This document shows positions 7,792 to 57,425 of a stretch of DNA of 64,000 nucleotides, one piece after another. Made by a program: the position numbers and the translations under genes. Source of the stretch: a bacterium. GTDB taxonomy: Bacteria > Hydrothermota > Tepidihabitantia > Tepidihabitantales > Tepidihabitantaceae. A model generated the notes under the pieces. It was given only the letters and a program-made list of their open reading frames with translations, searched no databases and was not told where the DNA came from. The DNA is taken from NCBI GenBank assembly GCA_035505375.1, contig DATJQV010000016.1, positions 32,556-96,555 on the forward strand. Reading direction: 5' to 3'. Positions within the stretch are counted from its first letter, which is position 1; each line of letters starts with the position of its first letter.

Positions 7792-9621
7792 TCAGCCCCG
7801 ACTGGTAAGCGGTGCAAGCCGGGCCACCGGCAAGGACTGATACCACTCGATCAGGGGCTGAATCTCGTCGCGGTGCCCGGACGCCGCCAGCGCAGCAGCC
7901 CGCCGCATGACGAAGAACCGGTAGCGCAACAGGATCTCCCGTGTCCGCGCGTCAGGTTCGCTGCGTGGCAGACGGACAGTGAGCTTCGTATAGTCGAATA
8001 CGGGCAGCGCCGAGCCAGCCGCAAGCCCGGAATCCGGGGCTTGAGGCTTGAGGCTTGAAGCTTGTATCTGGAACAGGAGCCCGACCGGGGCGCGCGGCAC
8101 ACCTGACAACATCTGACCGGCATCGGTCCCTGCGTCCACGTCAAAGGTCGTGTAGGCCGGTCGTTCCGGGCTGTGGGTAACGAAGCTCTCGAGTAGTCTG
8201 ATGTACCGGCGCTGTATCTCGGCCGGGTCTTTCAGGCGGTCGTGCTCAAACTCATCAAGGTACTGGCGGTAGCTGGCAATCTCCGTCTGCGACCGCTGAA
8301 CCAGCCAGGGGTAGGCGCGAGCGAGGTAATCGAAGTACCACGAACGCCGGAGAAGCTCCTTGTCGATGACGCAGACATCCGGTCGCACCTGCTCGACGTG
8401 CTGCAGGTAAAACAGCGGCGAGTAGACATCCCACCAATCGGTGATGATGGTCGCGTTATGCCCGGCTGAGACAAGTGTGTTCATTGCCTGGTCGTAGGCG
8501 ACGTAGTCGCCCTGCAAGCCGGCGACCTTGTAGTTCAGCACCAAGGCGGCAATCCCTAAGAGCCATGGCACCTGCCTGACGATGGTCCTGGCTGCTGGTC
8601 CGACATTCGACACTCGGCACTCGACACTCGTCACTAGCCCATCGAGTCCCACCATCCCGAATACTCCCAGTACAACCAAACAAGGTATGTAGTACGAGTC
8701 GATGTCAGGAATCGAATAGTTAATGGCATATAGGAACGCTGCGACGGCAGAAACCGTCAAGCCGATGGCCAGACTCCGCCTCTGGCGGAACAGCCGCGCC
8801 ACCCCGTACAGCACAACCGGGACAAGCACGTACAGGAAACCACGGGCCAGTATCGCTGTCCCGCGCCCGGCGTTGCGCATCACCTCACCGAATGGCTGAG
8901 AGAACATCCACACCTGGTACTGCCAGCCGGTCATGTGGCGTATGAGGTGAGTGATGTCTACGGGATTGTCCCATGCCAGCAAGGGCCCGGCCCTGGCGCG
9001 AAGCACCAGGAACAGATAAGGGGACATCCCAAACACGAACAGCAAGACCAACACCGGAATCCGGCGTACCAACTCGCGACGATACGCCAGTACGGCGGCC
9101 ATCGCCGCCCCCAGAACGGTGCTTGTCGCGGACATGTGGTTGGTCAGAGCAAGCCCCATGAGGTACGCCACAACCAGCAGCGGCCCTCCCCGCATCGACG
9201 CCTCAGCCGTCAGCCAGAGCAGCACAACCATGACGAGCGCGAGAGCATAGACCTCGACGTCGACCGCCGCGCTCCACACCGGGCACGAAAAACCCAGGAG
9301 CAGCGCACCGGTACCCGCCACTACCCTCGAAACTCCCAACCGGAGTCCCAGCAGTAGAAAGAACCCAACGCCGCACGCGGCCAGCACCGCGCTCAATACT
9401 GCCACGCGGTTGGCAACATTGGCTACAGGGATGAGGCTCACGATCCGACCAAGCATGGTGTACAATGGATATCCGGTCGGATGCAGGATATTCATGAGGT
9501 GACAGCCGGCCGCAAGTTCGCCCGAGTCAATCAGGCCCACGGTTGGCGAAAGAGTGAGAAGGTATACGACGAACGCCAGCGGGACGACAAGCCAGACGAG
9601 GTGGCGCGTCCTGGAACCCAA
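7792..9621 (-). CDS. DUF2723 family multi-spanning membrane protein (glycosyltransferase-like)
   Basis: The N-terminal signature LTLSPTVGLIDSGELAAG followed by HPTGYPLYTMLGRIVSLIP is diagnostic for DUF2723, a family that resembles GT-C glycosyltransferases. About ten hydrophobic helices follow in the first 390 residues, then a soluble domain with WWDVYSPLFYLQHVEQVRPDV. The substrate is unknown. No ATG or GTG precedes the conserved start, so translation probably begins at TTG 9621, which lies inside an AATTAGGAATTGGG word repeat. Two word repeats are carried in frame: about residues 329-340 (8601-8634) and 519-533 (8021-8064), both in regions that look like linkers. Confidence 0.85.
   Translation of the reverse strand: MGSRTRHLVWLVVPLAFVVYLLTLSPTVGLIDSGELAAGCHLMNILHPTGYPLYTMLGRIVSLIPVANVANRVAVLSAVLAACGVGFFLLLGLRLGVSRVVAGTGALLLGFSCPVWSAAVDVEVYALALVMVVLLWLTAEASMRGGPLLVVAYLMGLALTNHMSATSTVLGAAMAAVLAYRRELVRRIPVLVLLFVFGMSPYLFLVLRARAGPLLAWDNPVDITHLIRHMTGWQYQVWMFSQPFGEVMRNAGRGTAILARGFLYVLVPVVLYGVARLFRQRRSLAIGLTVSAVAAFLYAINYSIPDIDSYYIPCLVVLGVFGMVGLDGLVTSVECRVSNVGPAARTIVRQVPWLLGIAALVLNYKVAGLQGDYVAYDQAMNTLVSAGHNATIITDWWDVYSPLFYLQHVEQVRPDVCVIDKELLRRSWYFDYLARAYPWLVQRSQTEIASYRQYLDEFEHDRLKDPAEIQRRYIRLLESFVTHSPERPAYTTFDVDAGTDAGQMLSGVPRAPVGLLFQIQASSLKPQAPDSGLAAGSALPVFDYTKLTVRLPRSEPDARTREILLRYRFFVMRRAAALAASGHRDEIQPLIEWYQSLPVARLAPLTSRG
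8021..8064. repeat. Palindromic word repeat (AAGCCTCAAGC family) inside the DUF2723 gene
   Basis: GCAAGCCC is separated from GGGCTTGAGG and further GCTTGA words by the centre GGAATCCGG, giving an imperfect stem with tandem GCTTGAG units on one side. It is in frame and encodes QASSLKPQAPDSG. The same words recur in murC (37619-37676) and at the ftsI/murE junction (45430-45503). Confidence 0.7.
8601..8634. repeat. CGACATTCGACAC word repeat inside the DUF2723 gene
   Basis: This is a run of CGACATT, CGACACT, CGGCACT, CGACACT and CGTCACT words of 7-8 nt. It is translated as SVECRVSNV between two membrane helices. Near-identical words open the gene at 62150 (62169-62203). Confidence 0.65.
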
Positions 9622-9771: not shown

Positions 9772-10518
9772 TCATTCTCCTAGATACGCTGCTTTGACCT
9801 TCGGGTCACGCAGCAACTCAGCCGCCGGGCCGGAAAGCACGACCTTGCCGGTCTCAAGCACGTAAGCCCGGTGTGCAATCTGCAGGGCCATGAACGCGTT
9901 CTGCTCCACCAGCAGAATCGCCGTCCCCTCGCGGTTGATCTCCCGGATTATGTCGAATATCTCGCGCACGAGTATCGGCGACAACCCCATCGAAGGCTCA
10001 TCGAGCATGAGCAGCTTGGGTCGCGCCATCAGGCCGCGTCCCATCGCCAGCATCTGCAACTCGCCGCCGGAGAGCGTTCCCGCGGTCTGGCCGAGCCGTT
10101 CCCGCAGCCTCGGGAACGACTTGAACACCCTGTCGAGAGACGAGGGACCAGGGACGCGGGACTGGGGTCCGGACCCTGACCCCTCGCCCCTCGCCCCACG
10201 CCCCCGGCTATATGCCCCGAGCAGCAGGTTCTCGCGTACCGACAGGTAAGCGAAGGCCTGCCTTCCCTCCGGTACGTGGGCAATTCCCGACTTCACGACC
10301 CGGTGCCCGGCCAGGCCGTCAATCCGTCTTCCTTCGAACTCTATCTCGCCCTCGGCCGGCTTCATCAGCCCGGAGATGGTGCGCAGCGTCGTGCTCTTGC
10401 CCGCACCGTTTGCCCCGACCAGGGTGACGATCTCACCCTCGCCTACCTCGAACGAGATGCAGTGCAGGGCTCGAATCGCGCCATAGTCAACCGACATGCC
10501 GCGGACGCTCAGGAGCAA
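9772..10518 (-). CDS. livF: Branched-chain amino acid ABC transporter ATP-binding protein LivF
   Basis: This is one of two ATPases energising uptake by LivHM. It has Walker A (GANGAGKST), the LivF-type HVPEGRQAFAYLSVREN, signature LSGGELQMLAMGRGL, Walker B with KLLMLDEPSMGLSP, and the H-loop region LLVEQNAFMAL. TTG 10518 is chosen because it gives LLLSVRGMSVDYGAIRAL at the usual N-terminus and has AGGGG 8 nt upstream; the frame stays open to TTG 10557 inside the spacer repeat. About 24 residues (roughly 104-128, Gly/Arg/Ser/Pro rich) encoded by a palindromic repeat interrupt the helical region just before the signature motif. It is last in the operon. Confidence 0.93.
   Translation of the reverse strand: MLLSVRGMSVDYGAIRALHCISFEVGEGEIVTLVGANGAGKSTTLRTISGLMKPAEGEIEFEGRRIDGLAGHRVVKSGIAHVPEGRQAFAYLSVRENLLLGAYSRGRGARGEGSGSGPQSRVPGPSSLDRVFKSFPRLRERLGQTAGTLSGGELQMLAMGRGLMARPKLLMLDEPSMGLSPILVREIFDIIREINREGTAILLVEQNAFMALQIAHRAYVLETGKVVLSGPAAELLRDPKVKAAYLGE
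10139..10208. repeat. GGGAC/CCCCTCGCCCC palindromic word repeat inside livF
   Basis: The left arm is built of GAGGGACCAGGGACGCGGGA words and the right arm of CCCTCGCCCCTCGCCCC. They meet at a perfect 12-bp palindrome, GGGTCCGGACCC, at 10165-10176. The insertion keeps the livF frame. murB (37169-37240) carries a close relative with the same kind of centre. Confidence 0.8.
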
Positions 10519-16067: not shown

Positions 16068-16129
16068 CACCATCCGCTGTCCGCCAACCACCCCTTTCAG
16101 CCGGACGATCTTCAATCTCGAATCTAGAT

Positions 16130-16669: not shown

Positions 16670-16710
16670 TCTGATTTCTGGTCTCTGAATTCTGGTTTCT
16701 GCATTGTCCG
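16670..16710. repeat. ATTTCTGGTCTCTGAATTCTGG word repeat between arrays 1 and 2
   Basis: Short TTTCTG and ATTCTG words, the same family as 13580-13904. The sequence between the two 12-nt arrays (16430-16739) holds this repeat, a CTTGGCCTTTGGCTTTTGCC run at about 16600 and no credible gene. Confidence 0.6.
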
Positions 16711-16739
16711 GTTTTCTCTATCCCCTGGACGGCTGGGGG

Positions 16740-35029: not shown

Positions 35030-35145
35030 GATTTGCGATTTCCGATTTGCGATTTGCGATTTCCCGACATGGACCTCCGTACCAACTGCCGGGCAACACG
35101 ACAATCGTCACTCGTCATTCGTAACTCGACAATCACGAGAACCAG
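35030..35145. repeat. GATTTGCGATTTCC / TCGTCATTCGTAACTCG word repeat, ftsA-ftsZ spacer
   Basis: Words AGATTTGCGATTTCCGATTT and GCGATTTGCGATTTCCCG on one side and ACAATCGTCACTCGTCATTC and GTAACTCGACAATCACG on the other fill the spacer. It follows the same plan of short tandem words in two facing arms. Confidence 0.65.
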
Positions 35146-36364: not shown

Positions 36365-36450
36365 AGAAAGGGGTCCAGGGGTCAAGGAACCAAGGATTCG
36401 AGTGTTCTTCACTTGACCCCTTGAATCCTGGAGTCCTGGAATCCTCTCCT
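36365..36450. repeat. GGGGTCCAGGGGTCAAGG / CTTGACCCC palindromic word repeat upstream of ftsA
   Basis: The left arm GGGGTCCAGGGGTCAAGG and GATTCGAGTG face CACTTGACCCCTTGAATCC and TGGAGTCCTGGAATCC. It occupies the murB-ftsA gap where ftsQ might be expected. Confidence 0.7.
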
Positions 36451-36461
36451 CAGCCCTGCCG

Positions 36462-37520
36462 CTACCTGCCATTCGCCACTCCGGTCTTGTTCTGGGAATT
36501 CTGCATTCTGAGTTCTGAATTCTGAATTCTGGTTTCTCCGGGTCCTGGAAGATACTGCACTTCCTCTTCGAGCAGAATCCCGGTCCGCTCTTCGACCGTC
36601 GCCTTCACAATCTGGGCCAGTTCGTAGACATCCGCGAACCGCGCCTTGCCGGTGTTCACCAGGAAGTTCGCGTGCTTCTCCGAGACCTTGGCGCCGCCGA
36701 CGGTCTTGCCTTTCAACCCACACTCCTCAATCAACTTGCCTGCCGGAACCCGTCCCCCGTCTCCGGTCTCAGGATTCCTGAAGAACGACCCGGCCGATGG
36801 CTCCTTCGGGTGCTTCTCCCAACGCTGCTTCCTGATTTCCTGTGCGGACTCGCCCCGCGCCCCCCGCCCCCCGCCCCCCGCCAATGCCATCGTCACTTCT
36901 ACCGCGACCAGGCCGCGGTCTATGATCGGCCGCCGATACTCTCGACGCAGTTGCGCACCGGTCAGCGTTTGCTCGTTACCGTCTAGGTCAATGGCAGTGA
37001 CGCTGGAGAGTACGTCGCCCAGAGAACGTCCGAGCGCGCCGGCATTAGTGCGAAGTCCGCCCCCGACCGTTCCCGGGATACCGGCGAGAAACTCAGCCCC
37101 GACAAGGCCTTCACGCTCAGCGATGGTCGCCACCTCGTCAAGGTTAGCACCAGCGCCGCAGACCAAGGATAGGGGTTGGGGATTAGGGTCTGGGGATTGG
37201 GGTTCGGACCCTAGCCCCTCGCCCCTAGCCCCTGGCCCCTTCATCTTTGCCAGCTCGCCGCCGAGCGTTATCACAACCCCGCGCAGGCCCTGATCGGACA
37301 CGAGCACGTTGGACCCCCGGCCCAGCAGCCACATCCGGACTCCGGTATCGCGGCACACCTGAACCACACGCGCGAGCGCCTGCCGGTCGTCAACGCGGAC
37401 CCATGCGTCGGCCAGGCCGCCGATGCGGAAGCTCGTGTGCTGAGCCAGCGGCTCAGCGAACTTGAGCTCCGCCGCGCAGCCGGCTAGAGCTTCGCCAAGA
37501 TTTCGTCGCCAATCGAGCAT
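36462..37520 (-). CDS. murB: UDP-N-acetylenolpyruvoylglucosamine reductase MurB
   Basis: MurB makes UDP-MurNAc using FAD and NADPH. Key motifs are LAQHTSFRIGGLADAWV, WLLGRGSNVLVSDQGLRGVV, LAGIPGTVGGGLRTNAGALG, the catalytic Ser in AGSFFRNPETGDGG and ECGLKGKTVGGAKVSEKHANFLVN. Residues about 93-117 (Gly/Pro/Ser rich) are encoded by a palindromic repeat placed in a loop, and the last 20 residues (IQNSELRMQNSQNKTGVANG) are read through an ATTCTG word repeat. Both are additions to the conserved fold. The start overlaps the murC end by 37 nt. Confidence 0.95.
   Translation of the reverse strand: MLDWRRNLGEALAGCAAELKFAEPLAQHTSFRIGGLADAWVRVDDRQALARVVQVCRDTGVRMWLLGRGSNVLVSDQGLRGVVITLGGELAKMKGPGARGEGLGSEPQSPDPNPQPLSLVCGAGANLDEVATIAEREGLVGAEFLAGIPGTVGGGLRTNAGALGRSLGDVLSSVTAIDLDGNEQTLTGAQLRREYRRPIIDRGLVAVEVTMALAGGGGRGARGESAQEIRKQRWEKHPKEPSAGSFFRNPETGDGGRVPAGKLIEECGLKGKTVGGAKVSEKHANFLVNTGKARFADVYELAQIVKATVEERTGILLEEEVQYLPGPGETRIQNSELRMQNSQNKTGVANGR
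36489..36538. repeat. ATTCTGAGTTCTGAATTCTG word repeat forming the murB 3' end
   Basis: Words ATTCTGC, ATTCTGA, GTTCTGA, ATTCTGA and ATTCTGG are in tandem. They provide the last codons of murB. Confidence 0.75.
37169..37240. repeat. GGGGATTGGGG / CCCCTAGCCCC palindromic word repeat inside murB
   Basis: Left words are GGGGTTGGGGATTAGGG and TCTGGGGATTGGGG. The centre GGGTTCGGACCC spans 37200-37211. Right words are CTAGCCCCTCGCCCC and TAGCCCCTGGCCCC. It is a close relative of the element in livF (10139-10208) and is inserted in frame. Confidence 0.85.
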
Positions 37521-38923
37521 ATGTTTCCTGCTCCGGCAATCAGGACCACGTCGCCTTTGCGCAGCCTGTCGGTGAGCACACCGGGGATGTCGGCCATGTC
37601 GGGGACATAGCTCCAGCCCGCAAGCCTCCAGCCTCCAGCCGGGACTCCGGACTCCGAAGCTTGTGGCTTGTGGTCTGATGCCGCTTCTACTGCCCTAAGA
37701 ATCAGGGTCGCGTCCACTCCCGGGATCTCGGGCTCGGACGCCGCGTATATCTTCGTCAGGATGAGTTCGTCAGCCGCGGCAAAGCACGTTCCGAACTCTT
37801 CGGCCAGCGCCCTGGTCCTCGTGTACCGGTGGGGCTGGAACACAATCAGGATGCGCCGGTCGGGAAATGCGTGGCGCAGTGCTTCGAGGGTAACCCTGAC
37901 CTCGGTTGGATGGTGTCCGTAGTCGTCGTACACCATGATCCCGTTCTTCTCCCCAAGCTTCTCAAGGCGGCGATGAACTCCGGAGAAGACGGCCAACGCC
38001 TGCGCCATTGCGTCAAAACCAATGCCGAGTTCGGTGCCGGTCGCGAGCGCCGCGAGGGCGTTCGCGACGTTGTGCGCACCGGGCACCGGCAGGTTGAATC
38101 GGCCAACCTCTTTGCCAGCATAGAGCAGCGTGAAAGCGCTTGAGAATCCGTACAACTGGACATCCTTCACGCGAAAGTCCCATCCCCCGTCGCCCGGCCC
38201 GCGCCCCTCGATTCCGTACGTCACGACTCTCCGCTTGGCCCGGTTCCTTATCGACCGGACCGCGGGCGAATCCATGCAGAGCACGACCGCGCCGTAAAAC
38301 GGAACCCGGTTCACGAACCTAGTGAACTCCCGCTTCATGTCGGCCAGGTCATGGTAGACGTCCAGATGTTCGCGCTCGATGTTGGTCACGACTGCGATGG
38401 TCGGGTAGAGGGCAAGGAACGAACGGTCGCTCTCGTCCGCCTCGGCGACGAGGTACTCGGACTGCCCGAGCCTTGCCCCGGCATCGGCCCCCATGACGCG
38501 GCCGCCGATGACGCTCGTCGGGTCGAGCCCGCCACGCTCCATCAGGTGCGCGACCATCGAAGTGACAGTCGTCTTACCGTGACTGCCGGATACGGCCACC
38601 GAGAACTTCATGCGCATCAGCTCGGCCAGCATCTCCGCCCGGCGGATGACCGGGATCTCCCTGGCGCGCGCGGCCTCCAGCTCCGGATTGTCGGACCGGA
38701 CGGCCGAAGAGTAGACCACGACCTGGGCGTCGGCGCAGTTCGCGGCGTCGTGACCTGTTGCAACCCGGATCCCGGCTTCGGCGAGCCGGTGCGTCGTGTC
38801 ACTCTCTTTCACATCGGAGCCCGTCACCTCGAAGCCCATGTTCCGGAGAACGAGCGCGATGCCGGACATCCCGATACCGCCGATGCCAACGAAGTGGACT
38901 CGCTTCAGGCGGCCGAACATCAC
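37484..38923 (-). CDS. murC: UDP-N-acetylmuramate-L-alanine ligase MurC
   Basis: MurC adds the first amino acid to UDP-MurNAc. It carries VHFVGIGGIGMSGIALVL, the ATP-binding VSGSHGKTTVTSMVAHL, EADESDRSFLAL, DDYGHHPTEVRVTLEAL, FQPHRYTRTRAL and a final LIAGAGNICSIGDEIL. Residues about 415-435 (SDHKPQASESGVPAGGWRLA) come from a palindromic word repeat in the C-terminal domain. The start is GTG 38923 or ATG 38920; AGGAAC upstream, supplied by a GTTCATC/GTTCCTC word repeat, acts as ribosome site. Confidence 0.97.
   Translation of the reverse strand: MMFGRLKRVHFVGIGGIGMSGIALVLRNMGFEVTGSDVKESDTTHRLAEAGIRVATGHDAANCADAQVVVYSSAVRSDNPELEAARAREIPVIRRAEMLAELMRMKFSVAVSGSHGKTTVTSMVAHLMERGGLDPTSVIGGRVMGADAGARLGQSEYLVAEADESDRSFLALYPTIAVVTNIEREHLDVYHDLADMKREFTRFVNRVPFYGAVVLCMDSPAVRSIRNRAKRRVVTYGIEGRGPGDGGWDFRVKDVQLYGFSSAFTLLYAGKEVGRFNLPVPGAHNVANALAALATGTELGIGFDAMAQALAVFSGVHRRLEKLGEKNGIMVYDDYGHHPTEVRVTLEALRHAFPDRRILIVFQPHRYTRTRALAEEFGTCFAAADELILTKIYAASEPEIPGVDATLILRAVEAASDHKPQASESGVPAGGWRLAGWSYVPDMADIPGVLTDRLRKGDVVLIAGAGNICSIGDEILAKL
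37619..37676. repeat. AAGCCTCCAGCC palindromic word repeat inside murC
   Basis: GCAAGCCTCCAGCCTCCAGC on the left and GAAGCTTGTGGCTTGTGG on the right surround GGGACTCCGGACTCC. It is in frame with murC and of the same family as 8021-8064 and 45430-45503. Confidence 0.8.
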
Positions 38924-38954
38924 CGTTCCTCGTTCATCGTTGTTCGTTCATCGT

Positions 38955-40076
38955 TCACCGCGTCTGTGCGTCCCCGGGTCTCGGCGCTTCTCTTTCCTGG
39001 GGCCGGGGATCGGGGGCCCTAGTCCCCAGTCCCTCGTCCCCAGTCCCTAGTCCCAGCTCCTCTGCTACTTTGCGGGCTATCGCCGATGCCGCGTCGGGCC
39101 TGGCGACGGAACGCGCTGCCGCCTCCATCCGGCGGCGACGGGGCTCGTCTTCCATCAGGGCAAGGACCAAGCCGGTAAGCCCGGACAGGCGGCTCTGGTC
39201 CAGCACTGAGGCCGCCCCGACCGACGCCAGGTACTCAGCGTTCGCGTCCTGGTGACGGTCGGTGGCATGGGGGAATGGAATGAGTATGGCGGGTATGCCG
39301 AAGGCAACCAGCTCGGAAAGGACCACGCCGCCTGCCCGGGAAACCGCAATGGTCGCCCTCCGGTAGAGTTCCTCCGGATGGTTGGTGAACTCCACTATCT
39401 CGCAGTTCTTCGAATGGACGCGGGACCGGACGAAGTCGTAGTCGCGCCGGCCCGCAAGGATCATGAAATTCAGGTTGGTCAACGCCGCTGCCGCATCAAT
39501 GGCGGCGGCATTGAGCGCCTGAGCCCCGAGGCTACCGCCGATGAAAAGCACGGTCCGGCCATCATCGCTCCGGATCCCCTGGTGGAAATCCCTCCGCAAC
39601 GGATTCCCGGTCACGCTGCTGGCTCCCGGAAACGACTTCGCGCTGGGAAAGGCGAGGAAAGACTCGCGCGCCTTCGACGCGAAGAAGCTCGTCACCCGGC
39701 CGGGGATGCAGTTCTGTTCGAGGAGGAAGTAGGGCGTGCCGGCGAACTCGGTCGCCGCGAGCAGGGCGGCGGTCGCGAATCCACCCGTGGCCACGACTCC
39801 GGACGGCCCGACCCGGCGCAGCAGACGGATGGCCTGCATCAGTCCCTGACCGAGCCGCCAGACGGCCTGGGCCTTCCGGCCGACGCCCTTGCCGTAGAAC
39901 CCGCCCGCGGCCAGTGGCTCGAAAGCGAAGCCGTGCTCATCCGCGACCCGGTTCTCAAGCTCTAATTCTCGCCCGGCCCACAGAACTTCGATTCCCAGGT
40001 CCCTCATCTCGATGGCAAGGGCAAGCGCCGGAAACACGTGGCCGCCTGTGCCGCCCGCGCCAAGTATGACCTTCAA
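38955..40076 (-). CDS. murG: UDP-GlcNAc:lipid I N-acetylglucosaminyltransferase MurG
   Basis: MurG converts lipid I to lipid II on the cytoplasmic membrane face. The N-terminal ILGAGGTGGHVFPALALA, VVATGGFATAALL, FIGGSLGAQALN and SRAGGVVLSELVAFGIPAIL motifs are intact. Translation starts at TTG 40076, whose T overlaps the ftsW TGA. The last 35 residues (from GLGTGDEGLGTRAPDPRPQE) are read from a GGGAC/CCCCAGTCCCTAG palindromic repeat and are not part of the usual protein. Confidence 0.96.
   Translation of the reverse strand: MKVILGAGGTGGHVFPALALAIEMRDLGIEVLWAGRELELENRVADEHGFAFEPLAAGGFYGKGVGRKAQAVWRLGQGLMQAIRLLRRVGPSGVVATGGFATAALLAATEFAGTPYFLLEQNCIPGRVTSFFASKARESFLAFPSAKSFPGASSVTGNPLRRDFHQGIRSDDGRTVLFIGGSLGAQALNAAAIDAAAALTNLNFMILAGRRDYDFVRSRVHSKNCEIVEFTNHPEELYRRATIAVSRAGGVVLSELVAFGIPAILIPFPHATDRHQDANAEYLASVGAASVLDQSRLSGLTGLVLALMEDEPRRRRMEAAARSVARPDAASAIARKVAEELGLGTGDEGLGTRAPDPRPQEREAPRPGDAQTR
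38996..39056. repeat. CCCAGTCCCTAGTCCC palindromic word repeat in the murG 3' end
   Basis: CCTGGGGCCGGGGATCGGGG faces AGTCCCCAGTCCCTCGTCCC and CAGTCCCTAGTCCC around GGGCCCTAG. It encodes the extra C-terminal tail of MurG. Confidence 0.8.
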
Positions 40077-41368
40077 GGAGATGCTCTACGCAACAGGCTG
40101 GACGCAGCACGCCGCGATGGAGCGTGGCGCACACTGTAATGCGCGTGGGACGTCGCTCCGGGGAGCTTCGCGCCGAATCCGCCAAACACCAGGACCTTGT
40201 GTCGGGCCGGGCTCGACTGCCGTCCGAAGCCGGCCGCCCGATAGCGCGACGCCGCAGGCATGTTCATGACTGTCCTCGACCGCTTGTACCGCGATATGTT
40301 CAGGAGCACGCCCGCCGCAAACAGGTTCGACAGCAGGGCCGAACCGCCGGACGATATGAAAGGCAACGGTTGGCCGGTCGTCGGAATAACTCCCAGGGTC
40401 ACGGCAACGTGCACGATGGCGTAGAGGAATATTGCGAAAGTGATTCCCGAAGCGAGAAACTGGCCGAAGGGCGCGGAACTCTCGTTGCTGACCCTCATGC
40501 CGTACAGGAACAGGATCAGATAGAGCAGACAGACGGCCGCACTGCCGATGAACCCGAACTCCTCCCCTATTTCGGCAAAGATGAAGTCGTTGTACATCTT
40601 GGGCAGGAACTGGTACTTCTGTCGACCCTCGCCCAGGCCACGGCCGAAGGGACCTCCGGAACCGATGGCGATCAGCGATTGCTCCTGCTGGTGGTGTTTG
40701 CCGCTTGTGAACCGTTCCCAGCGATCGTGCGCGTAGGATATGAAGCTTATCGCACCGACAAAGAGCACTACCGCGGCCACGACGGTCAACAGCACGTGCC
40801 ACCACCTCACACCGGCGATCACGAAGACCGCGAGGCTGACCACGGCGATGATGAAACTCGTTCCCACTGCCGGCTGGAGCAGAGTCAGCCCGACGACGCC
40901 GAACACCGCGGCACCGGGCACCAGCAACCCCCAGACCAGGCGTTTTTCGAGTCCCTTTCCCTTGGCCCAGTCGAAGTATCCGGCCAGCCACACCAGCAGT
41001 CCGTACTTGGCGAACTCGGCCGGCTGGAACGAGAACTTGTCGCCGCCGAGTGCGCGCTTGACGTCCTTGAACATGAGACCGGCCACGAGCGTGAGCATCA
41101 ACATCGCCACCGACCCGAAGAGCAGCCACCACTTGACTCTCCGGTTCCAGGTCGTATAACGCAGCTTTGCACCAAGGAACAGGACCAGCAACCCCGCCGC
41201 TGCCCTCAGCACTTGAGAACTGAGAAAAGCAACTCCCTTGTGGCAGGTCGTCGCGTAGACGAGCGTCACGCCGATCAGGACCAGCGTGACGACCACGAAG
41301 AGCAGCGTCGAGTTGATCGGCCCGGACGGCCGTTCCGGGCTCCCCGATTCCAACCTGAAGTTAGTCAA
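40073..41368 (-). CDS. ftsW: Lipid II polymerase FtsW (SEDS family)
   Basis: SEDS proteins polymerise lipid II with a partner PBP, here probably FtsI. The 431-residue protein has about ten membrane helices. Signature stretches are KFSFQPAEFAKYGLLVWLA, LTLLQPAVGTSFIIA, QSLIAIGSGGPFGRGLGEGR, FIFAEIGEEFGFIG and GQPLPFISSGGSALLSNL. About 55 residues after the last helix form an Arg/Ala-rich cytoplasmic tail not expected in the family. It overlaps murD (8 nt) and murG, consistent with tight co-expression. Confidence 0.96.
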   Translation of the reverse strand: MTNFRLESGSPERPSGPINSTLLFVVVTLVLIGVTLVYATTCHKGVAFLSSQVLRAAAGLLVLFLGAKLRYTTWNRRVKWWLLFGSVAMLMLTLVAGLMFKDVKRALGGDKFSFQPAEFAKYGLLVWLAGYFDWAKGKGLEKRLVWGLLVPGAAVFGVVGLTLLQPAVGTSFIIAVVSLAVFVIAGVRWWHVLLTVVAAVVLFVGAISFISYAHDRWERFTSGKHHQQEQSLIAIGSGGPFGRGLGEGRQKYQFLPKMYNDFIFAEIGEEFGFIGSAAVCLLYLILFLYGMRVSNESSAPFGQFLASGITFAIFLYAIVHVAVTLGVIPTTGQPLPFISSGGSALLSNLFAAGVLLNISRYKRSRTVMNMPAASRYRAAGFGRQSSPARHKVLVFGGFGAKLPGATSHAHYSVRHAPSRRAASSLLRRASP

Positions 41369-42866
41369 GTTTGCTCACCTCCCTCCGGAACGCCTCACCC
41401 CTTGCCGCGAAGTCCTGGAACAGGTCGAAGCTGGCGAAACCCGGTGCGAACAGCACCTTGTCACCGGCCCGCGCCTTGGCCCGGGCGGCGACCACGGCTG
41501 ACCCGAGATCAGGAAGCACGTCGTAACGCCGAAACCCGATGGCCTCCAGCTCGCGCGCGAGACGCGCGCTGCTCTCGCCGACCAGCAGGACCCAGCTCGC
41601 GTACTTCCTCATGGCCTTGACGTAGTCGTCCGTCGGCAGCGCTTTCTCTCTGCCGCCGGCAATGAGAATGACTCGACGGGGGACCGGGGACAGGGGACCG
41701 GCTCTCCGTCGTCCGTCCTCCGTCCGCCGTCCTCCGCCGAGGGCCACCGCCTCCAGCGAGCGGACGCCCGCGGCGGGGTTGGTCGTCATCGAGCTGTTGA
41801 TATAGTCAACGCCCTTGAGTCGGCGGACATGCTCCAGCCGGTGCGGCAGACCGGCAAATGTCCTGAGCGCGCGCCGGATCGGAGGCAGGCGCACTCCGAG
41901 CAGCCGTACCGCGGCGATGGCGGCAAGGCAATTCTGGATGTTGTGCAGCCCCGGAAGCCTGACCTGCTGAATCGGCAGCACATCCCGGCCCCCGGTCCAG
42001 AGGCACCCGTCCGCCACGTAGGCGTCGGCGCTGCGCCGCCGCAGGGAGAAGAAACGCTTCTGCCCCTCCCCGCGGTTCCGCGCCGCGTAGACCAGCGGGT
42101 CATCGTGGTTGAGGACGGCGTAGTCACACCGGGTTTGCCGGTCGAGGATTCTGAACTTGCAGTCGGCGTAGCGACGGATTGTCCCGTGACGATTGAGGTG
42201 GTCGGCGCTTATGTTCAGGACCACCGCGACCTTCGGCTCCAGCCAGCGCGCTCTTTCGAGCTGGAAACTGGATGCTTCGACCACGTAGTAGTCTTTGGAG
42301 CCGGCCAGCAGCGCCGCAGACAGCGGCTGCCCCGGAGCCAGATTGCCACCGCAGAACACGCGCTTGCCTGCATTCTCAAGCATCAGTGCGATCAGGGCAG
42401 TCGTGGTCGACTTGCCGTTCGTCCCGGTGATGGCGACAATCGGCCCACCGACAAATCTGCTCGCGAGGTCGAGTTCGTCGACAATCGGAATCGCCCGCTC
42501 GCGCAGAACGCGAACCAGGTCATTCGCGTCGCTGATGCCGGGACTCACCACCGCCCAGTCGACGCGCGCCGCTTCCGGCCGCCGGGTCGTCGTCATGCCC
42601 GCCTTACGAAGACGCGACACCGGTTCTGAATCCAGTGCGGCCGGGTTCTCGTCGCTCCCGATGACCTTCGCCCCGACCTTGAGCAGGAATCGGGCAACCG
42701 ACGTACCGGAGCGACCCAAGCCGACGACCAGAACCTTAGTACCACTCAAAGGGATCGAGGGATCAAGGGATCGAGGGATCAAGGGATCGAGTGCCGGGCA
42801 CTTTGTCCCTCTATCACTTTGTCCCTTCATCCCTGCTCTGAACCTCGACCTCGACCTCTGCCTCAT
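41361..42866 (-). CDS. murD: UDP-N-acetylmuramoylalanine-D-glutamate ligase MurD
   Basis: MurD adds D-Glu to the peptidoglycan precursor. The fold starts at about residue 43 with KVLVVGLGRSGTSVARFLL. GTNGKSTTTALIALML, NISADHLNRHG and GSMTTN-like NSMTTNPAAGV follow. The ATG overlaps the mraY stop (ATGA), so the extra 42 N-terminal residues are probably translated; most of them (LDPLIPRSLDPSIPLSG) come from a GGGATC word palindrome. A second in-frame repeat adds about residues 376-397 (Arg/Gly/Pro rich). It carries two repeat insertions, more than any other gene in the cluster. Confidence 0.96.
   Translation of the reverse strand: MRQRSRSRFRAGMKGQSDRGTKCPALDPLIPRSLDPSIPLSGTKVLVVGLGRSGTSVARFLLKVGAKVIGSDENPAALDSEPVSRLRKAGMTTTRRPEAARVDWAVVSPGISDANDLVRVLRERAIPIVDELDLASRFVGGPIVAITGTNGKSTTTALIALMLENAGKRVFCGGNLAPGQPLSAALLAGSKDYYVVEASSFQLERARWLEPKVAVVLNISADHLNRHGTIRRYADCKFRILDRQTRCDYAVLNHDDPLVYAARNRGEGQKRFFSLRRRSADAYVADGCLWTGGRDVLPIQQVRLPGLHNIQNCLAAIAAVRLLGVRLPPIRRALRTFAGLPHRLEHVRRLKGVDYINSSMTTNPAAGVRSLEAVALGGGRRTEDGRRRAGPLSPVPRRVILIAGGREKALPTDDYVKAMRKYASWVLLVGESSARLARELEAIGFRRYDVLPDLGSAVVAARAKARAGDKVLFAPGFASFDLFQDFAARGEAFRREVSKLD
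41676..41738. repeat. GGGGACC / GTCCGTCCTCC word repeat inside murD
   Basis: GGGGGACCGGGGACAGGGGA on one side and CCGTCGTCCGTCCTCCGTCC then GCCGTCCTCCGCC on the other. It is in frame with murD. Confidence 0.75.
42748..42836. repeat. GGGATCGAGGGATCAAG palindromic word repeat at the murD 5' end
   Basis: Five GGGATCGA/GGGATCAA words are followed by GTGCCGGGCAC (a near-perfect palindrome) and then CTTTGTCCCTCTATCACTTT and GTCCCTTCATCCCT. It encodes the extra N-terminal residues of MurD. Confidence 0.85.
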
Positions 42867-43951
42867 CTTATCTTCAGCGTCCCCAGCGCCGCCAACCCGA
42901 AGAGGACAGCAAGAATCATGAATCGAGTGACAACCTGCGGTTCCGACCAGCCCGCGAGCTCAAAGTGGTGATGAAGTGGGGCCATTCGGAACAGCCGCTT
43001 GCCCCCGGTGGCATGGAAATAGCCGATCTGCAGGAGTGTGGAGCCGGTCTCCATGACCAGTACGCCGCCGACTATCGGCAGCAGCATTTCGTGCTTGCAG
43101 AGTATTGCGGCGAGTCCGAGAATGCCGCCCAGCGGCAACGACCCGGTGTCGCCCATGAACACCTGCGCCGGCCAGGCGTTGAACCAGAGGAACCCGAGAC
43201 AAGCCCCGACCATGGCCAGGCAGAAGACGGTCATCTCGCCGCCGGTCGGCACGAACATGATATTAAGGTACTGAGCGGTCTTGAAGTTCCCGGCGACGTA
43301 GCTGAGCACGGCGTAGCTGCCAAGAGCTACGGTCACAAGCCCGGCCGCCAGGCCATCCAGGCCGTCCGCCAGATTCACGGCATTTGACGCCGATACGATG
43401 ACCAGCATCACAAACGGGATGTAGAACCACCCATACTGCACGACGATGTTCTTGAAGAGCAGCACGTTCGTCGTCGAGCGGTTGGCCGGGTCTACAGGGA
43501 TGAAGTAGAGCACGGCTCCGACGAAGAACGCGAGCGAAAACTGACCCACCAGCTTCACCGTCTTGCTCAAGCCGCGCGGCTTCCGCAGCTTGACCTTGAC
43601 GTAGTCGTCGACGAATCCAAGCAGACCAAGCCAGGTCACGACCAGCAGACCCAGTTGTATCTGCCGGTTCCTGAGGTCGGCCAGCAGGAGCACCGAGACA
43701 ATCCCCGCCGCCAGTATGAGAAGGCCGCCCATCGTCGGTGTACCGGCCTTGCCCTTGTGTCGCTCCGGCACTTCGTCGCGGATGTTCTGGCCGATGTTGA
43801 GCCGCCGCACCATCCGGATGAGCGGCTGCCCGAGCAGGAGGACGAGCATGATGGCCAGCCCGCCGGCAGCAGCCGCCCGGAACGTTATGTACCTTACGAT
43901 GTGGAGCGGACCGAATGACCCGCGCAACGACATCAGCAGAGAGTAGAGCAC
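42863..43951 (-). CDS. mraY: Phospho-N-acetylmuramoyl-pentapeptide-transferase MraY
   Basis: MraY moves phospho-MurNAc-pentapeptide onto undecaprenyl phosphate to give lipid I. The 362-residue, ten-helix protein shows KAGTPTMGGLLILA, GFVDDYVKV, NAVNLADGLDGLAAG, NAWPAQVFMGDTGSL and the family-specific PLHHHFELAGWSE. It starts at GTG 43951, directly next to the murE stop. murF, which makes its pentapeptide substrate and usually lies between murE and mraY, is absent here. Confidence 0.98.
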   Translation of the reverse strand: MLYSLLMSLRGSFGPLHIVRYITFRAAAAGGLAIMLVLLLGQPLIRMVRRLNIGQNIRDEVPERHKGKAGTPTMGGLLILAAGIVSVLLLADLRNRQIQLGLLVVTWLGLLGFVDDYVKVKLRKPRGLSKTVKLVGQFSLAFFVGAVLYFIPVDPANRSTTNVLLFKNIVVQYGWFYIPFVMLVIVSASNAVNLADGLDGLAAGLVTVALGSYAVLSYVAGNFKTAQYLNIMFVPTGGEMTVFCLAMVGACLGFLWFNAWPAQVFMGDTGSLPLGGILGLAAILCKHEMLLPIVGGVLVMETGSTLLQIGYFHATGGKRLFRMAPLHHHFELAGWSEPQVVTRFMILAVLFGLAALGTLKIR

Positions 43952-45418
43952 CTAGGCTGTACCTCGCAATAGATCGAGGATCGTCTCGCGGTCGTCGAAA
44001 TGCCTGCGCTCGGTGCCGACAATCTGATAGTCCTCGTGTCCCTTGCCGGCCACGACGACCGCGTCGTGCGGCTTCGCTTCGACCAGAGCGCGACGGATCG
44101 CCTCTCGCCGGTCCGGTTCCACGACTCTGGGCGCCGTACCCATCCCCCGCAGAATCTCGTCGATGATTGCCTGTGGTGACTCGCCGCGGGGGTTGTCGGA
44201 CGTGACGACCGGCACGTCGGCGAGTTGGACTGCCGCCTCGCCCATCAGCGGCCGCTTGCCCCGGTCGCGGTCGCCGCCGCACCCGAACACCACGATAACC
44301 CGGCCGGTGGTGAATTCCCTGACCGTCGAGAGTACGCGGCGCAGGGCGTCGGGCGTATGAGCGAAGTCCACGTAAACCCGGAATGGCTGCCCCGCATCCA
44401 CCGGTTCGAGACGGCCCGGAACGGCCGCAAGTGACTCTGCCCCCGCCGACATTGTCTCCGGGGTCCAGCCGAGGGCCTTGCCGGTGGCGACGGCAGCCAG
44501 CAGGTTGGACAGGTTGTGCCGGCCGAGGAGCTTGAGTCGCACCGGCCAGACATGGCCGTCGATACTCACCTCGCAATCGAGTCCGTCCGGTCGCACGCCA
44601 CTGACCCTGCCCCATACGTCCGGTACCGGCTCTAGGTCCGGTCTCGTCCCGTAGGTAATAACGCGGGCTCGGGTCTGGTGCGGGATGTCTCGTCCCAGCG
44701 CGTCATCGAGGTTGGTGACCGCGGCCGCGTTCGGCATCAACCCGGTGAAGAGCCTCATCTTTGCTTCACGGTATGCGTCCAGAGTGCGATGGAAGTCGAG
44801 GTGGTCCTGAGTCAGGTTCGTGAACGCGCCGACCTTGAAGTCCAGGTCAAACACACGGTCGAGCGCCAGCGAATGTGATGACACCTCGGCGATGCAGAGC
44901 GGAATCTGCCGCTCAGCCAGCCGGGCGAGCAGTCGCACGAAATCGAGGCTCTCCGGTGTCGTCTGTCCGGCCTTCAGCGTGTCGCTGCCGTCCCAATACT
45001 CGATTGTCCCGACGAATCCCGGTTCGATGCCCGCCTGCCTCGCCATCGCCCGCAGCATGAAAGCGGTCGTCGTCTTACCGTTGGTCCCGGTGATGCCGAC
45101 CAGGTTCAGCTTCCGGGCCGGGAAGTCGTAGAACCGGTTCGCCACCTGGGCGAGGAAACGTCGTGGGCTCTTGGTCTGGATTACCGCGACCCAGTTCCTG
45201 CGCACGCTGTTGACGTCGGCTGTGGCAACAGCGACCGCACCGCGGTTAACCGCCTCGTCGATGTATTCCTGCCCCGAGACCTTGAACCCTTCAATCGCAA
45301 CAAACAGGTAGCCCGGCTTCACCGCGGCCGAGTGGTAGGCAAGTCCCTTGATCTCCATTGCCGAGTTGCCCTGCACCGTGCACGGAACGCCCTTGGTCAG
45401 GTCGATGATGCGTTTCAT
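43952..45418 (-). CDS. murE: UDP-MurNAc-tripeptide synthetase MurE, meso-diaminopimelate type
   Basis: MurE adds the third stem amino acid. It has VGITGTNGKTTTAFMLRAMA, SSHSLALDRV, NLTQDHLDFHRTLDAY and VDFAHTPDALRRVL. The motif DNPR (VTSDNPRGESPQ) is the one associated with meso-diaminopimelate as substrate, so peptidoglycan is probably DAP-type. ATG 45418 (MKRIIDLTKG) overlaps the ftsI stop as ATGA; the longer frame to 45562 is only read-through of a word repeat and the ftsI end. Confidence 0.97.
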   Translation of the reverse strand: MKRIIDLTKGVPCTVQGNSAMEIKGLAYHSAAVKPGYLFVAIEGFKVSGQEYIDEAVNRGAVAVATADVNSVRRNWVAVIQTKSPRRFLAQVANRFYDFPARKLNLVGITGTNGKTTTAFMLRAMARQAGIEPGFVGTIEYWDGSDTLKAGQTTPESLDFVRLLARLAERQIPLCIAEVSSHSLALDRVFDLDFKVGAFTNLTQDHLDFHRTLDAYREAKMRLFTGLMPNAAAVTNLDDALGRDIPHQTRARVITYGTRPDLEPVPDVWGRVSGVRPDGLDCEVSIDGHVWPVRLKLLGRHNLSNLLAAVATGKALGWTPETMSAGAESLAAVPGRLEPVDAGQPFRVYVDFAHTPDALRRVLSTVREFTTGRVIVVFGCGGDRDRGKRPLMGEAAVQLADVPVVTSDNPRGESPQAIIDEILRGMGTAPRVVEPDRREAIRRALVEAKPHDAVVVAGKGHEDYQIVGTERRHFDDRETILDLLRGTA

Positions 45419-47241
45419 CGGTTGCTCCCCGCGGCAAGCTGGAAGCCGCAAACCCCATGCCCCGGAGTCCGGCTTGAAGCTTGAAGATCGAGGCCCGAAG
45501 CCCTGCTCCTCATCCGCTCGAGTAGAATCAGGCTCTCCCCAATCTGCTTGAAGACCGGGCACGCCGCGGTTCCGGCAAATCGCTCGGTCTTCGGTTCGTC
45601 AATCAGCACCGCAATCACGTACCGGGGCCGTTCCTTGGGAAAGAAACCGATGAATGTCATTCGGGACTTGGTCTTGGAGTAGCCGCCACCCGGCTCCACC
45701 TTCTGAGCGGTACCGGTCTTGCCGCAAACCGACACGCCGTCGATCTGTGCCAGCACCCCGGTCCCCTCGGTGACTACGCGTTCGAGAATATCCTTCATCC
45801 GGCGAGCCGTCTCCGGCCGGAGCGCTTGTCGCAGCCGGGCCGGGCCGAACTGCTGCACGATCCGTCCCGATGAAGCCCGAGGTCCGAGGAACGGGATCTG
45901 AAATGCGGCGCTGGAAGTTCCGGGCTGCCGAACCGACTCGATAAGATAAGGGCGAAGGTAGGTGCCATCATTCGCCACACACAGGTATGCCGCTGCCAGT
46001 TGCAGCAAGGTGACGGTCACGCCTTGACCGAAGACCACATTCGCGAAACGGAGCGTACTAAGTCGCTGCGGCGGGTCGATCCAGCCGCTTCCCTCGTTGG
46101 GTAGACCGATGCCCACCGAGTTGCCGAACCCGAACGCCCGCGCCAGTTCGTAGTACTTACCCGGGTTGAGCTGCATCGACAAGAGTGCGCAGCCCGGGTT
46201 CGATGACTCTATGAACAGACCGGAGAAGTCGAGAATACCGTGCCTGTGGGCGTCATGGATCTTGTACTTGCCGATCTGGATGAACCCGGAGGACACGTCA
46301 AACGTCTCGCGCGTCAACCGGTCCGCATCCGGACTCTCGAGCGCCGTAGCGCAGACGACAATTTTGAAAGAAGACCCCGGTTCGAACTGGTCTGAAATGG
46401 CCGCGGACTTGTACGATTCCCTGGGGAAAGCCTCGAAGCGATTCGGGTCATAACCGGGGTAGTCGGCCAGAGCCAGAATCGACCCCTTGGTTGCATCCAG
46501 CACTATCGCCGAGCCGCGCAGCGCCCCGCACTCCTGCACGCGTCGTTCCAGGGCGTCGTAGCAGATGTGCTGCACGTCGAGGTCCAGTGTCAGATTGATG
46601 TCCAGACCGGCGGTCGGCAACTTCGCCGGGAAGCTGGGATACGGAAACGCCCGGCCGATCGCGTCCTTCTGAAGCAGGACCCAGCCGTCGCTGCCGCGCA
46701 GCACCGAGTCGTACTCGAACTCCAGACCGGCAAGCCCGCAGGTATCGCCGGTGAAGCCGACGACGTTCGCGCACAGCTCGCCATGCGGGTATGCCCGGAC
46801 ATGCTCGTCGTCAACATACGTACAATTCCCGAATTGCCGCTGGATCAGCACCCGCCGCAACGAATCTCCGATGGCGTAGTCGACGTGACGCATGAACGAG
46901 AACAGGCACCTGCTTCCGTAAAGGTCCCTAGCTATGGCGCCGCGCTCGGCCAGACCGAATCCGGCCAGGATCCCGGCCAGGGTGTCCTTGTCACGCGCCC
47001 ACTGCGGCAGAATTCGAATGGAGCAACTGGAACGGTTGTACGTCAACGGCCTGCCTGCCGCATCGAAGACCCGGCCCCGCGCAGCATGCACGGCGAGAGT
47101 CTCGCTCTGCTGCCCGGCGGCCTCTCGCTCGTAAGACTTCCAGCGCCCAAGTTGAACGTAACCCAACAGGACAAGCAGGCCGATCCAGACCGCTATCGCC
47201 GCGGCAACCAGCACCTTCGTCCGACTAATGGGTTGGTGCAT
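45415..47241 (-). CDS. ftsI: Division-specific transpeptidase FtsI (penicillin-binding protein)
   Basis: FtsI crosslinks septal peptidoglycan. After one membrane helix (VLVAAAIAVWIGLLVLLGYV) come the pedestal domain and the transpeptidase domain with all three motifs: S-x-x-K in EPGSSFKIVV, S-x-N in IESSNPGCAL and KTG in VCGKTGTAQKV. ATG 47241 with AAGGGA upstream is chosen; it overlaps the ftsL end by 17 nt. The last about 30 residues (SGLDLQASSRTPGHGVCGFQ...) are encoded by a palindromic word repeat. No PASTA domains are present. Confidence 0.96.
   Translation of the reverse strand: MHQPISRTKVLVAAAIAVWIGLLVLLGYVQLGRWKSYEREAAGQQSETLAVHAARGRVFDAAGRPLTYNRSSCSIRILPQWARDKDTLAGILAGFGLAERGAIARDLYGSRCLFSFMRHVDYAIGDSLRRVLIQRQFGNCTYVDDEHVRAYPHGELCANVVGFTGDTCGLAGLEFEYDSVLRGSDGWVLLQKDAIGRAFPYPSFPAKLPTAGLDINLTLDLDVQHICYDALERRVQECGALRGSAIVLDATKGSILALADYPGYDPNRFEAFPRESYKSAAISDQFEPGSSFKIVVCATALESPDADRLTRETFDVSSGFIQIGKYKIHDAHRHGILDFSGLFIESSNPGCALLSMQLNPGKYYELARAFGFGNSVGIGLPNEGSGWIDPPQRLSTLRFANVVFGQGVTVTLLQLAAAYLCVANDGTYLRPYLIESVRQPGTSSAAFQIPFLGPRASSGRIVQQFGPARLRQALRPETARRMKDILERVVTEGTGVLAQIDGVSVCGKTGTAQKVEPGGGYSKTKSRMTFIGFFPKERPRYVIAVLIDEPKTERFAGTAACPVFKQIGESLILLERMRSRASGLDLQASSRTPGHGVCGFQLAAGSNR
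45430..45503. repeat. GCAAGCTGGAAGC / GCTTGAAGCTTGAAG palindromic word repeat at the ftsI 3' end
   Basis: CGGCAAGCTGGAAGCCGCAA and CTTGAAGCTTGAAGATCGAG surround CCCCGGAGTCCGG. It belongs to the family found in murC and the DUF2723 gene and encodes the FtsI tail. Confidence 0.8.
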
Positions 47242-53713: not shown

Positions 53714-53734
53714 CAGTCGCCATATTTCTGGGCG

Positions 53735-53917
53735 ATGTCAAGGCGCGGCGCGGCCGGTGGCCGCGAGTTACCAGTACCCAGGTTCCAGTTCCCAGTTGAG
53801 GACATCGGACGACGTTGCACGTTGTACCAGTCCGCCAACCAACGTGGCTGGTCGAGACCATGACGGCAGCCGACAGCCTGCAGCCTGCGGCTTGCGGCCG
53901 GGACCTGAGTCAGGGAG
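53735..53917. repeat. CCAGTTCCCAGTT and GCAGCCTGCAGCCTG word repeats
   Basis: TACCAGTACCCAGGTTCCAG and TTCCCAGTTG at about 53767-53798 and GCCTGCAGCCTGCGGCTTGC at about 53877-53896 repeat short words. No gene is present between the IS and the next toxin-antitoxin pair. Confidence 0.55.
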
Positions 53918-56184: not shown

Positions 56185-57425
56185 AGAAGAGTGCTCAAGT
56201 GATCAAGAGGTCTAGTGGTCAAGTGAAGAAACCCCGCACTGGACCACTGGACCACTCGACCACTCGGTCACCTCGGGTCCGCGCGGACCTCACCGAGGTG
56301 CCGGAATGGCTGCGCAAGCGCGAGTGCCCGCATAAGGAAAAGTACATGAGCGGCAAGCGCATAATGCCGACCGGCATCACCGGCCGGGAAAGGCTGCCCG
56401 GCCTGATGGAGGGCACTTTCCTTGCTTACAACGCGGCACGACTGCGGCAGGGCTGCGAGCTCTTCACCGAGAAGATGCTCACGCAGGACACCTTTGTCGG
56501 CATGAGCCTAGCCGGAGCGCTTACGCCTGCCGGTCTCGGCTGCTCGGCGATTGTCCCGCTCATCAAGGCCGGATTCGTAGACTGGATCGTCGCGACCGGC
56601 GCCAACATGTACCACGACCTGCACTTCGCGTTCAACCTGCCGCTCCATGTCGGCTCGCACGTGGTGGACGACACCGACCTCCGCCGCAACGACGTTGTCC
56701 GCATCTACGATGTGTTCCTCGGCTATACCGACTGCCTGATGGCGACCGACAAGATTCTACGTTCCATCCTGGTTCGGCCGGAGTTCCAGAAGGAAATGGG
56801 CACGGCCGAGTTCTACCATCTGCTGGGACGATATGCGGCTGAGTGGGAAAGGAAGACCGGCAACAAGGACGTTTCAGTTCTGGCCGCAGCATATCGCGCG
56901 GGTGTACCCATCCACACCAGCTCGCCCGGAGATTCGACCATCGGCATGAACATCGCGGGCCTGGAACTCAAGGGCCTGAAGCTGCGCATCAACCCTTCAA
57001 CCGACGTCAACGAGACAACGTCCTACGTGCTCCACGCCAAGCGCTCAGGCGGGAAGTCGGCCGTCCTGCTCATTGGCGGCGGCAGCCCCAAGAATTTCAC
57101 GCTCCAGACCGAGCCGCAGATACAGGAAGTTCTGATGATCAAGGAGCTCGGTCAGGACTACTTCTTCCAGATAACCGACGCGCGGCCCGATACCGGCGGT
57201 CTGTCCGGCGCCACGCCGCACGAAGCCGTGTCGTGGGGCAAGGTTGACCCGGAGAAGCTGCCGGATGCTCTGGTCTGCTACACCGACGTGACGATCGCGC
57301 TACCGATGCTCGTGCACTACGCGCTCGCGACGCATCCTCGGCGCAAGCTGCGCCGTCTCTACGACAAGCGTTCCAGGTTGATGGAAGATCTCACTCGCGA
57401 GTTCTTTGCACACACGCATTTCTGA
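56181..57425 (+). CDS. Deoxyhypusine synthase-like protein, probable homospermidine synthase
   Basis: The core from about residue 55 is DHS-like: [87 protein letters not shown] with the catalytic-type Lys, and [14 protein letters not shown]. Bacteria lack the eukaryotic target eIF5A. Bacterial relatives can transfer an aminobutyl group to putrescine, giving homospermidine; the decarboxylase gene in front supports this. The first about 30 residues ([20 protein letters not shown]...) are encoded by a word repeat and are not part of the family. Confidence 0.88.
56192..56275. repeat. AGTGGTCAAGTG / CCACTGGACCACTCG palindromic word repeat at a gene's 5' end
   Basis: CAAGTGATCAAGAGG, TCTAGTGGTCAAGTG on the left and CACTGGACCACTGGACCACT, CGACCACTCGGTCACC on the right face each other around AAGAAACCCCG. 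It is translated as the N-terminus of the DHS-like protein. Related words (ATCCAGTGGTCCAGTGATCG) lie at 15412-15432. Confidence 0.75.

Follow-up and report, generated by a model that had tools for sequence, protein, structure and literature searches.

Short repeats lying in or between bacterial genes have been described in several forms, and they form the background to the elements reported here, which are built of tandem seven- or eight-base words, in part arranged as two facing arms of a hairpin, and which occupy cell-wall genes and other sites in a 64-kb stretch (the window, meaning the whole stretch analysed) of the genome G000 (3.6 Mb, 90 contigs, 98% complete). Rickettsia palindromic elements (RPEs), found in Rickettsia and Wolbachia and given as 105–146 bp or 100–150 bp, occur as in-frame palindromes in conserved protein genes and also in spacers, and at some sites the RPE group differs from one species to another (PMC2229807, PMC3767692); a CGTC end tag is named for an R. 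conorii RPE (PMC3733652). Repetitive extragenic palindromic sequences (REPs) carry GTAG or CGTC tags and enter genes as well (PMC3733652), and REPINs are inverted REP doublets (PMC3116915). GGGAATC heptamers in Xanthomonas are mostly intergenic and in two genomes form 70 and 75 inverted pairs of neighbours, and Nostoc has a heptamer repeat, GGGGA(C/T)T (PMC4692102). Marine Beggiatoaceae carry TAACTGA arrays, one of them at the very end of the MurG frame, for which mobility was considered (PMC4679880), and the tandem repeats of Borgs lie in frame and make disordered protein stretches (PMC9879509). These accounts follow excerpts of the papers cited, and our comparisons extend as far as those excerpts do.

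Like RPEs, the word elements are present in frame in conserved protein genes, but the two families that we aligned (a and b, below) span about 75–100 nt rather than 105–146 bp, consist of tandem 8-base words, belong to a genus of the candidate division WOR-3 and have many other word families alongside. With REPs and REPINs they share short inverted doublets dispersed through the genome, some of them within genes. In the alignments of families a and b the CGTC end tag is not conserved and the GTAG tag was not found, and neither of these two families has the 5'TA3' ends of most bacterial miniature inverted-repeat transposable elements. As in Xanthomonas and Nostoc, a tandem 7-base unit is over-represented between genes; unlike that study, which dealt with one word type per organism, we count 89 consensus words in 136 arrays, with unlike words in two arms, octamers and frequent translation in loops. 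The 136 arrays taken together are not made of the near-identical units of one word that mark heptamer simple sequence repeats. The TAACTGA repeats are likewise heptamer arrays with one at the MurG end, although in them a single word is repeated directly, with a stop in each of the three forward frames, and no two-armed hairpin is formed. The Borg repeats, of archaeal extrachromosomal elements, have in-gene units divisible by three, and no facing-arm word families are described in the portion of that report used here. The word elements combine traits of known systems, and none of the tag or transposase features tested is present in them. Since palindromes lying in frame (Rickettsia, REPs) and heptamers that form inverted pairs (Xanthomonas) have already been published, the word elements are not a new class, and the proposal of an undescribed class in the first-pass annotation of the window goes too far. 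The open-licence literature yielded nothing on palindromic heptanucleotide repeats in bacterial genomes or on WOR-3 palindromic repeats, which is no proof of absence.

One loop of MurB holds different repeat families even in closely related bacteria. In the window (coordinates are window positions; strand is given where one is assigned), a two-armed heptamer hairpin with AGGGGNN words lies in frame in MurB loop 1 (37170..37240, minus strand), and a G-rich heptamer array (CGCCCCC) lies in loop 2 (36851..36882, minus strand). The named relatives of this MurB, P0033 and P0094, are candidate division WOR-3. In the first 65 of 120 listed MurB homologs (160 found), which were used for the family and tree analyses, loop 1 carries one of five recognisable families in 60 proteins, unclassified sequence in two and no insert in three, and loop 2 is without an insert in 33. 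The inserts avoid invariant columns. On a tree of the masked protein core the loop 1 family changes 33 times, as compared to a mean of 36.5 and a minimum of 31 in 200 shuffles of the labels; the median core identity is the same for like-family and unlike-family pairs (0.807 and 0.808), and two MurB proteins with cores that are 95.4% identical differ in loop family. An AlphaFold2 model based on an alignment of 36 of the 120 listed homologs (A1) has a mean predicted local distance difference test score (pLDDT) of 54 over loop 1 insert residues 101–110, with 282 of 352 residues reaching 90, and in 4pyt, the closest MurB chain of solved structure, a gap of 19 residues falls at the insert.

Sites were also compared with those of five congeners (G001–G005) and many more distant kin. 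At a threshold slightly lower than that used for the densities below, the window has 36 merged elements, and at least one congener gives the same site for 25 of them. Eighty orthologous-site comparisons with the five congeners returned no array in 41 cases, other words in 21 and the same words in 18, at a threshold that 1.6% of shuffled stretches pass and that misses degenerate hairpins visible by eye, such as those of G001 and G003 at 36366. Where the length of a site differs from that in a congener, the difference is a multiple of three in 23 of 27 comparisons within genes and in 19 of 39 outside them, several comparisons sharing one element; together with the mapping of sites this upholds the claim that the elements lie in frame, in loops and at protein ends. 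The MurC site is a net 51 nt longer in G000 than in G001 and G002, and the murC loop insert is missing in these two and in eight kin outside the genus (paralogous MurD/MurE rows of G004, G005, G010 and G014 were ignored, and G003 and G008 gave no usable murC loop). The MurD loop, which in the window has a two-armed heptamer element in frame (41675..41736, minus strand; fold z −2.10), contains unlike elements in G000, G004 and G005. The loop inserts of murC and murD, and the long insert in loop 1 of murB, are absent from those kin outside the genus that could be compared, so that the inserts are not fixed at identical positions across the phylum; MurB loop 1 is 6 residues longer in G006 and G012, and MurB loop 2 of G015 has word repeats of its own.

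Outside these loops, too, presence is erratic between species. A single heptamer array of GAATTCT words lies in frame at the MurB C-terminus (36496..36537, minus strand; fold z −1.7); G002 and G003 share its words, G004 has different ones, and G001 has no array at threshold. An ABC-transporter ATPase gene (livF-like, PF00005/PF12399) carries in frame, at 10134..10204 (minus strand), a relative of the element in murB loop 1, and this site is a net 42 nt shorter and without an array in all four congeners compared (G001, G003, G004 and G005). The site at 8018 in a TMEM260-like gene (PF11028), holding a relative of the murC and ftsI elements (8018..8064, minus strand), is a net 42 nt shorter in G001, G002 and G004 and 15 nt shorter in G003. 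At 56190, G001 shares the words of the window, G004 and G005 have different ones, and G002 and G003 have no array. At the site of a two-armed spacer element downstream of ftsA (35030..35134; GATTTGC words) G003 has GGGAT-type words, and both here and at 36366 the facing arms appear by eye to be kept though the words differ.

Two families of octamer hairpins were followed further by searching the six genus genomes with the family a hairpin at 56190..56266, which has AGTGGTCA words, and with the family b hairpin at the mraY–murD junction (42749..42834; GGGATCRA / GTCCCTYT), whose arms are 38 nt long and whose frame is open as an N-terminal linker of MurD. Family b has at least 26 copies at at least 21 sites and family a at least 25 copies at at least 18 sites, with no shared flanks in either case. 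Aligned full-length copies give one consensus per family that includes both arms, with the same arm asymmetry (L251, L233 and L234 were left out as repeats of copies already taken). Profiles of the two families match nothing at E 0.001 in 755 kb from kin beyond the genus or in 1409 kb from other phyla. Some of the copies that went into these profiles come from the same G000 sample that was searched, and the five family a places in that sample include cross-matches to family b-type octamer elements. Family b flanks mraY at both junctions in G003, only before it (murE–mraY) in G005 and only after it (mraY–murD) in G000. The murE–mraY junction is empty in G000, G001, G002, G007, G010 and G011, has a different hairpin in G004, and has other, longer spacers in G008 and G015. 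Family b is also found in frame in murB loop 1 of G003, which links the murD linker to murB at the level of DNA.

Words also differ between copies standing at the same site. One site has AGTG words in both arms in G002 (L240) and AGGG words in both arms in G003 (L269), and L221 of G001 differs in the same manner from its G004 counterpart in L224. In L230 of G003, a chimera, AGGG words in one arm face CACT words in the other, and the G005 counterpart (L220) has AGTG and CACT. By a crude count of dominant four-letter words, unlike words dominate the two arms in 7 of 51 aligned copies. From this one clean chimera and the several mixed-arm copies we infer that the family changes at standing sites by arm-wise conversion or replacement. 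Base pairs are conserved and double changes are rare (family b: 2 of 18 pairs; family a: 1 of 9), and with almost no compensatory change nothing indicates that RNA pairing is under selection. The mean number of open frames out of six is 3.3 in family b (2.4 when shuffled) and 1.8 in family a (2.1 when shuffled); we therefore discarded a general bias for open frames, as family a falls below its shuffles although family b lies above. The G+C-rich palindrome CCTGCCCGCGCANCAGCAGGCGGG, 24 nt long and matched with at most 3 mismatches, is nested in word elements of G003 (L305) and G004 (L132); it occurs at three separate places, L305 1544–1567 in murB loop 1 of G003, L132 11302 (the same as L219 683) and L229 1389 of G004, and at none in 622 kb of G000 or in loci outside the genus.

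By a simple local score of matches at a fixed distance, the window has 35.9 tandem segments per 100 kb at period 7, 7.8 at period 8 and zero at periods 4, 5, 10, 11, 13 and 15; 192 kb of shuffled sequence gave no segment at any of the periods tested. In 80 loci from other phyla (1409 kb) the densities are 1.7 and 0.7 per 100 kb, and in 544 kb of G000, window included, they are 21.0 and 4.2, so the window is enriched relative to the genome as a whole. Periods 7 and 8 combined reach 12.6–41.5 per 100 kb across the six genus members and, in small samples, 23.7 in G015, 10.8 in G014 and 10.0 in G007, where the pattern is thin (two period-7 segments in 20 kb of a single-contig 3.26-Mb genome); of the other 38 sampled genomes, 31 are without any segment and 7 have one each. 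The 544 kb of G000 contain the 136 arrays, with 89 distinct consensus words. Identical neighbouring words occur within arms, and by inspection many words of the window elements are not G-rich. An inverted partner (score of at least 11, within 75 nt) accompanies 35 of the 136 arrays, as against 1.2 with shuffled and 4 with swapped flanks, and a direct partner at the same score accompanies 17. With gene positions from a home-made gene caller, 76 arrays are intergenic where 19.6 are expected, a 3.9-fold excess, 44 are intragenic (93.1 expected) and 16 are near gene ends (23.3 expected). Since the arrays beyond the 35 are single or too degenerate, the term palindromic fits part of the set only: 8 of 12 stretches tested fold with z between −1.4 and −3.9, and the murG–murC spacer, the activator and the ftsI/murE stretches do not. 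At period 12 there is a separate excess in G000 (6.1 per 100 kb).

We consider it likely that the word hairpins and arrays are small mobile elements. The variability of sites, the whole-hairpin copies at unrelated sites and the spread of families in MurB largely support the earlier idea of mobile, translated linkers, in that the elements are interspersed, in frame and variable between species. They would be non-autonomous repeats, likely copied as whole hairpins into permissive spots, new copies arising by copying rather than by slippage in place, and after insertion copies probably trade arms or words with one another; inserts in essential genes would survive through their placement in flexible loops or ends and an open frame. 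It is towards this hairpin copying with later exchange of arms or words that we lean, with modest confidence. Several observations weigh against it. At threshold, 101 of the 136 arrays are without a clear inverted partner, and hairpin copying therefore cannot be the whole story. The comparison between species bears out variable sites and reveals by eye no consistent target duplication or end motif, the ends being fuzzy and the congeners diverged. No mobilising enzyme was found for the word elements: wherever the ends of the G000 Y1 transposases are visible they are unrelated, and a reverse transcriptase occurs in four of the six genus genomes. The MurB tree is weak (35 of 62 inner branches are open) with families assigned from protein patterns, and recombination of alleles between strains would distribute the MurB families in the same way.

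Taken as a full explanation, such recombination would mean that the inserts are old and that ordinary exchange of murB alleles between strains makes the families differ at one site, in keeping with a loop family that has almost no phylogenetic signal, as expected from allele shuffling; it leaves unexplained the presence of one family in murB, at gene junctions and elsewhere, as well as the arm chimeras, and we regard it as improbable. Slippage fares somewhat better but is still unlikely. Under this model, repeats of 7 and 8 bases lengthen and shorten where they stand under weak selection, and facing arms form through template switching at quasi-palindromes, which agrees with the identical neighbouring words within arms and with most arrays being without a facing partner; heptamers were moreover the commonest category of 5–11 nt repeat in most genomes of an earlier survey in which polymerase slippage was proposed, as told in the relevant part of MacGregor 2015 (PMC4679880). 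Whole hairpins with the same arm asymmetry amid unrelated flanks, at as many sites as counted above for families b and a, and the lack of any profile match outside the genus are difficult to reconcile with it. Functional mRNA hairpins under selection for stability, pausing or coupling, with the coding cases as side effects, would suit the intergenic excess, the several folds that are stronger than shuffles and the facing arms at 36366 and 35030; given the scarcity of compensatory changes, the stretches that fold no better than shuffles and the erratic presence between species, we attach very little weight to this possibility. That the pattern is an assembly artefact or chance has a negligible probability: the genomes are drafts, with G000 in 90 contigs, but six congeneric assemblies show the same pattern, as do MurB proteins taken from several public sources, two segments are found in the single contig of G007, and shuffles give none at the same threshold.

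As to what might move the elements, the five Y1 genes of G000 and their flanks, read by eye, have terminal repeats of GGGGACACAATACTTA and similar types and not array words, and none of these five is a REP-type RAYT (REP-associated tyrosine transposase) flanked by array words; Y1 genes with unrelated terminal repeats have been described for some other genomes as well, according to the section consulted of PMC3733652. Across 47 genomes, array density correlates with Y1 gene number (Spearman 0.46) no better than with G+C content (0.48), and several same-class genomes with many Y1 genes have no array in a 13–20 kb sample (e.g. G039, with 12 Y1 genes); on these grounds and that of the other Y1 ends, a RAYT was rejected as mobiliser. 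A reverse transcriptase (PF00078) was also rejected, as it is present in 12 of 61 genomes overall and shows no consistent link to the arrays. Y1 genes with terminal repeats, several of them of the GGGGACACAATACTTA type, are seen in L155–L159 (G000) and L160–L164, the end in L157 being doubled. Long, degenerate arrays that repeat about every 12 bases stand beside Y1 genes in L156 and L157, as noticed by eye, and at window positions 16240–16430, as detected by a repeat finder.

A bolder and, in our estimation, rather doubtful extension is that these are a class of self-renewing selfish DNA whose unit of replication is the word arm, copied between dispersed elements, so that sites stay occupied while the family changes and essential proteins throughout the genus gain ever-new disordered linkers, and that arrays at mraY loci in Nitrospinae, Gemmatimonadetes and other phyla are of the same class. 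If the mobile reading is right, palindromes would rewrite essential enzymes at permissive loops faster than the rest of the protein diverges, they would amount to a natural insertion screen for tolerant protein sites, and the spread of tiny palindromes, a long-open question, could be tested at the level of a single arm. The mraY-locus arrays, which are facing heptamer or octamer arrays of other words, are located in L020 (2585–2739), L042 (10066–10168), L033 (20130–20190) and L029 (2775–2923) of Desulfobacterales, Gemmatimonadetes, Nitrospinae and Deltaproteobacteria genomes. The mraY frame of G015 (L117) has an internal TGA.

Repeats in murB, murC, murG, murD and ftsI and in spacers, as first annotated, are confirmed far above shuffles and other phyla. 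MurB, MurC, MurD, MraY and MurE were identified above curated NCBIfam cut-offs; MurG scores slightly below its cut-off (241.6 vs 250.25) with both Pfam domains present, the FtsI-like penicillin-binding protein has spoVD_pbp as its best NCBIfam model at a score below the cut-off, and FtsA and FtsW were assigned by Pfam. The murB–ftsA spacer contains a two-armed octamer-word hairpin (36366..36448; fold z −3.87) with arms of 39 nt each at 36366–36404 and 36410–36448 that are 72% complementary. Within murB there is a weak array or facing-arm stretch at 36749–36773, and near the MurC C-terminus a two-armed element (37614..37677, minus strand; fold z −2.71). The murG–murC spacer has a single heptamer array (TCATCGT; 38920..38960) without a stable hairpin (fold z −0.14), and CCCTAGT words with a facing GGGGCCGGGG stretch form a heptamer element that is translated as a C-terminal extension of MurG (38997..39054, minus strand), the array or facing arms there being mapped at 39017–39054. 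At the FtsI C-terminus, just upstream of murE, an element with 14-nt facing arms (45435..45503, minus strand) folds no more strongly than shuffles (z −0.85), nor does the activator array fold beyond them (z 0.57).

The kinship proposed between elements in different genes holds in every case when scores are judged against the maximum of 200 shuffles: 62 against 28 for the murB loop and the livF-like ATPase, 37 against 26 for murC and the TMEM260-like gene, 44 against 26 for ftsI and the TMEM260-like gene, 26 against 23 for murC and ftsI, and 48 against 31 for the murG–murC spacer and a sigma-54 activator. A further candidate pair, the murD loop and the murG end, was rejected (28, below a shuffle maximum of 33). 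The window also contains dispersed repeats of other kinds. A larger one at 16105–16982 has at least 25 relatives of about 240–840 nt elsewhere in G000; that at 25842–26174 has, among the matches listed, many relatives of about 65–255 nt in all six genus genomes; and short repeats of about 50–160 nt at 54845–54952 and 53694–53904 have, again among the matches listed, many copies in G000, G003, G004 and G005 among others.

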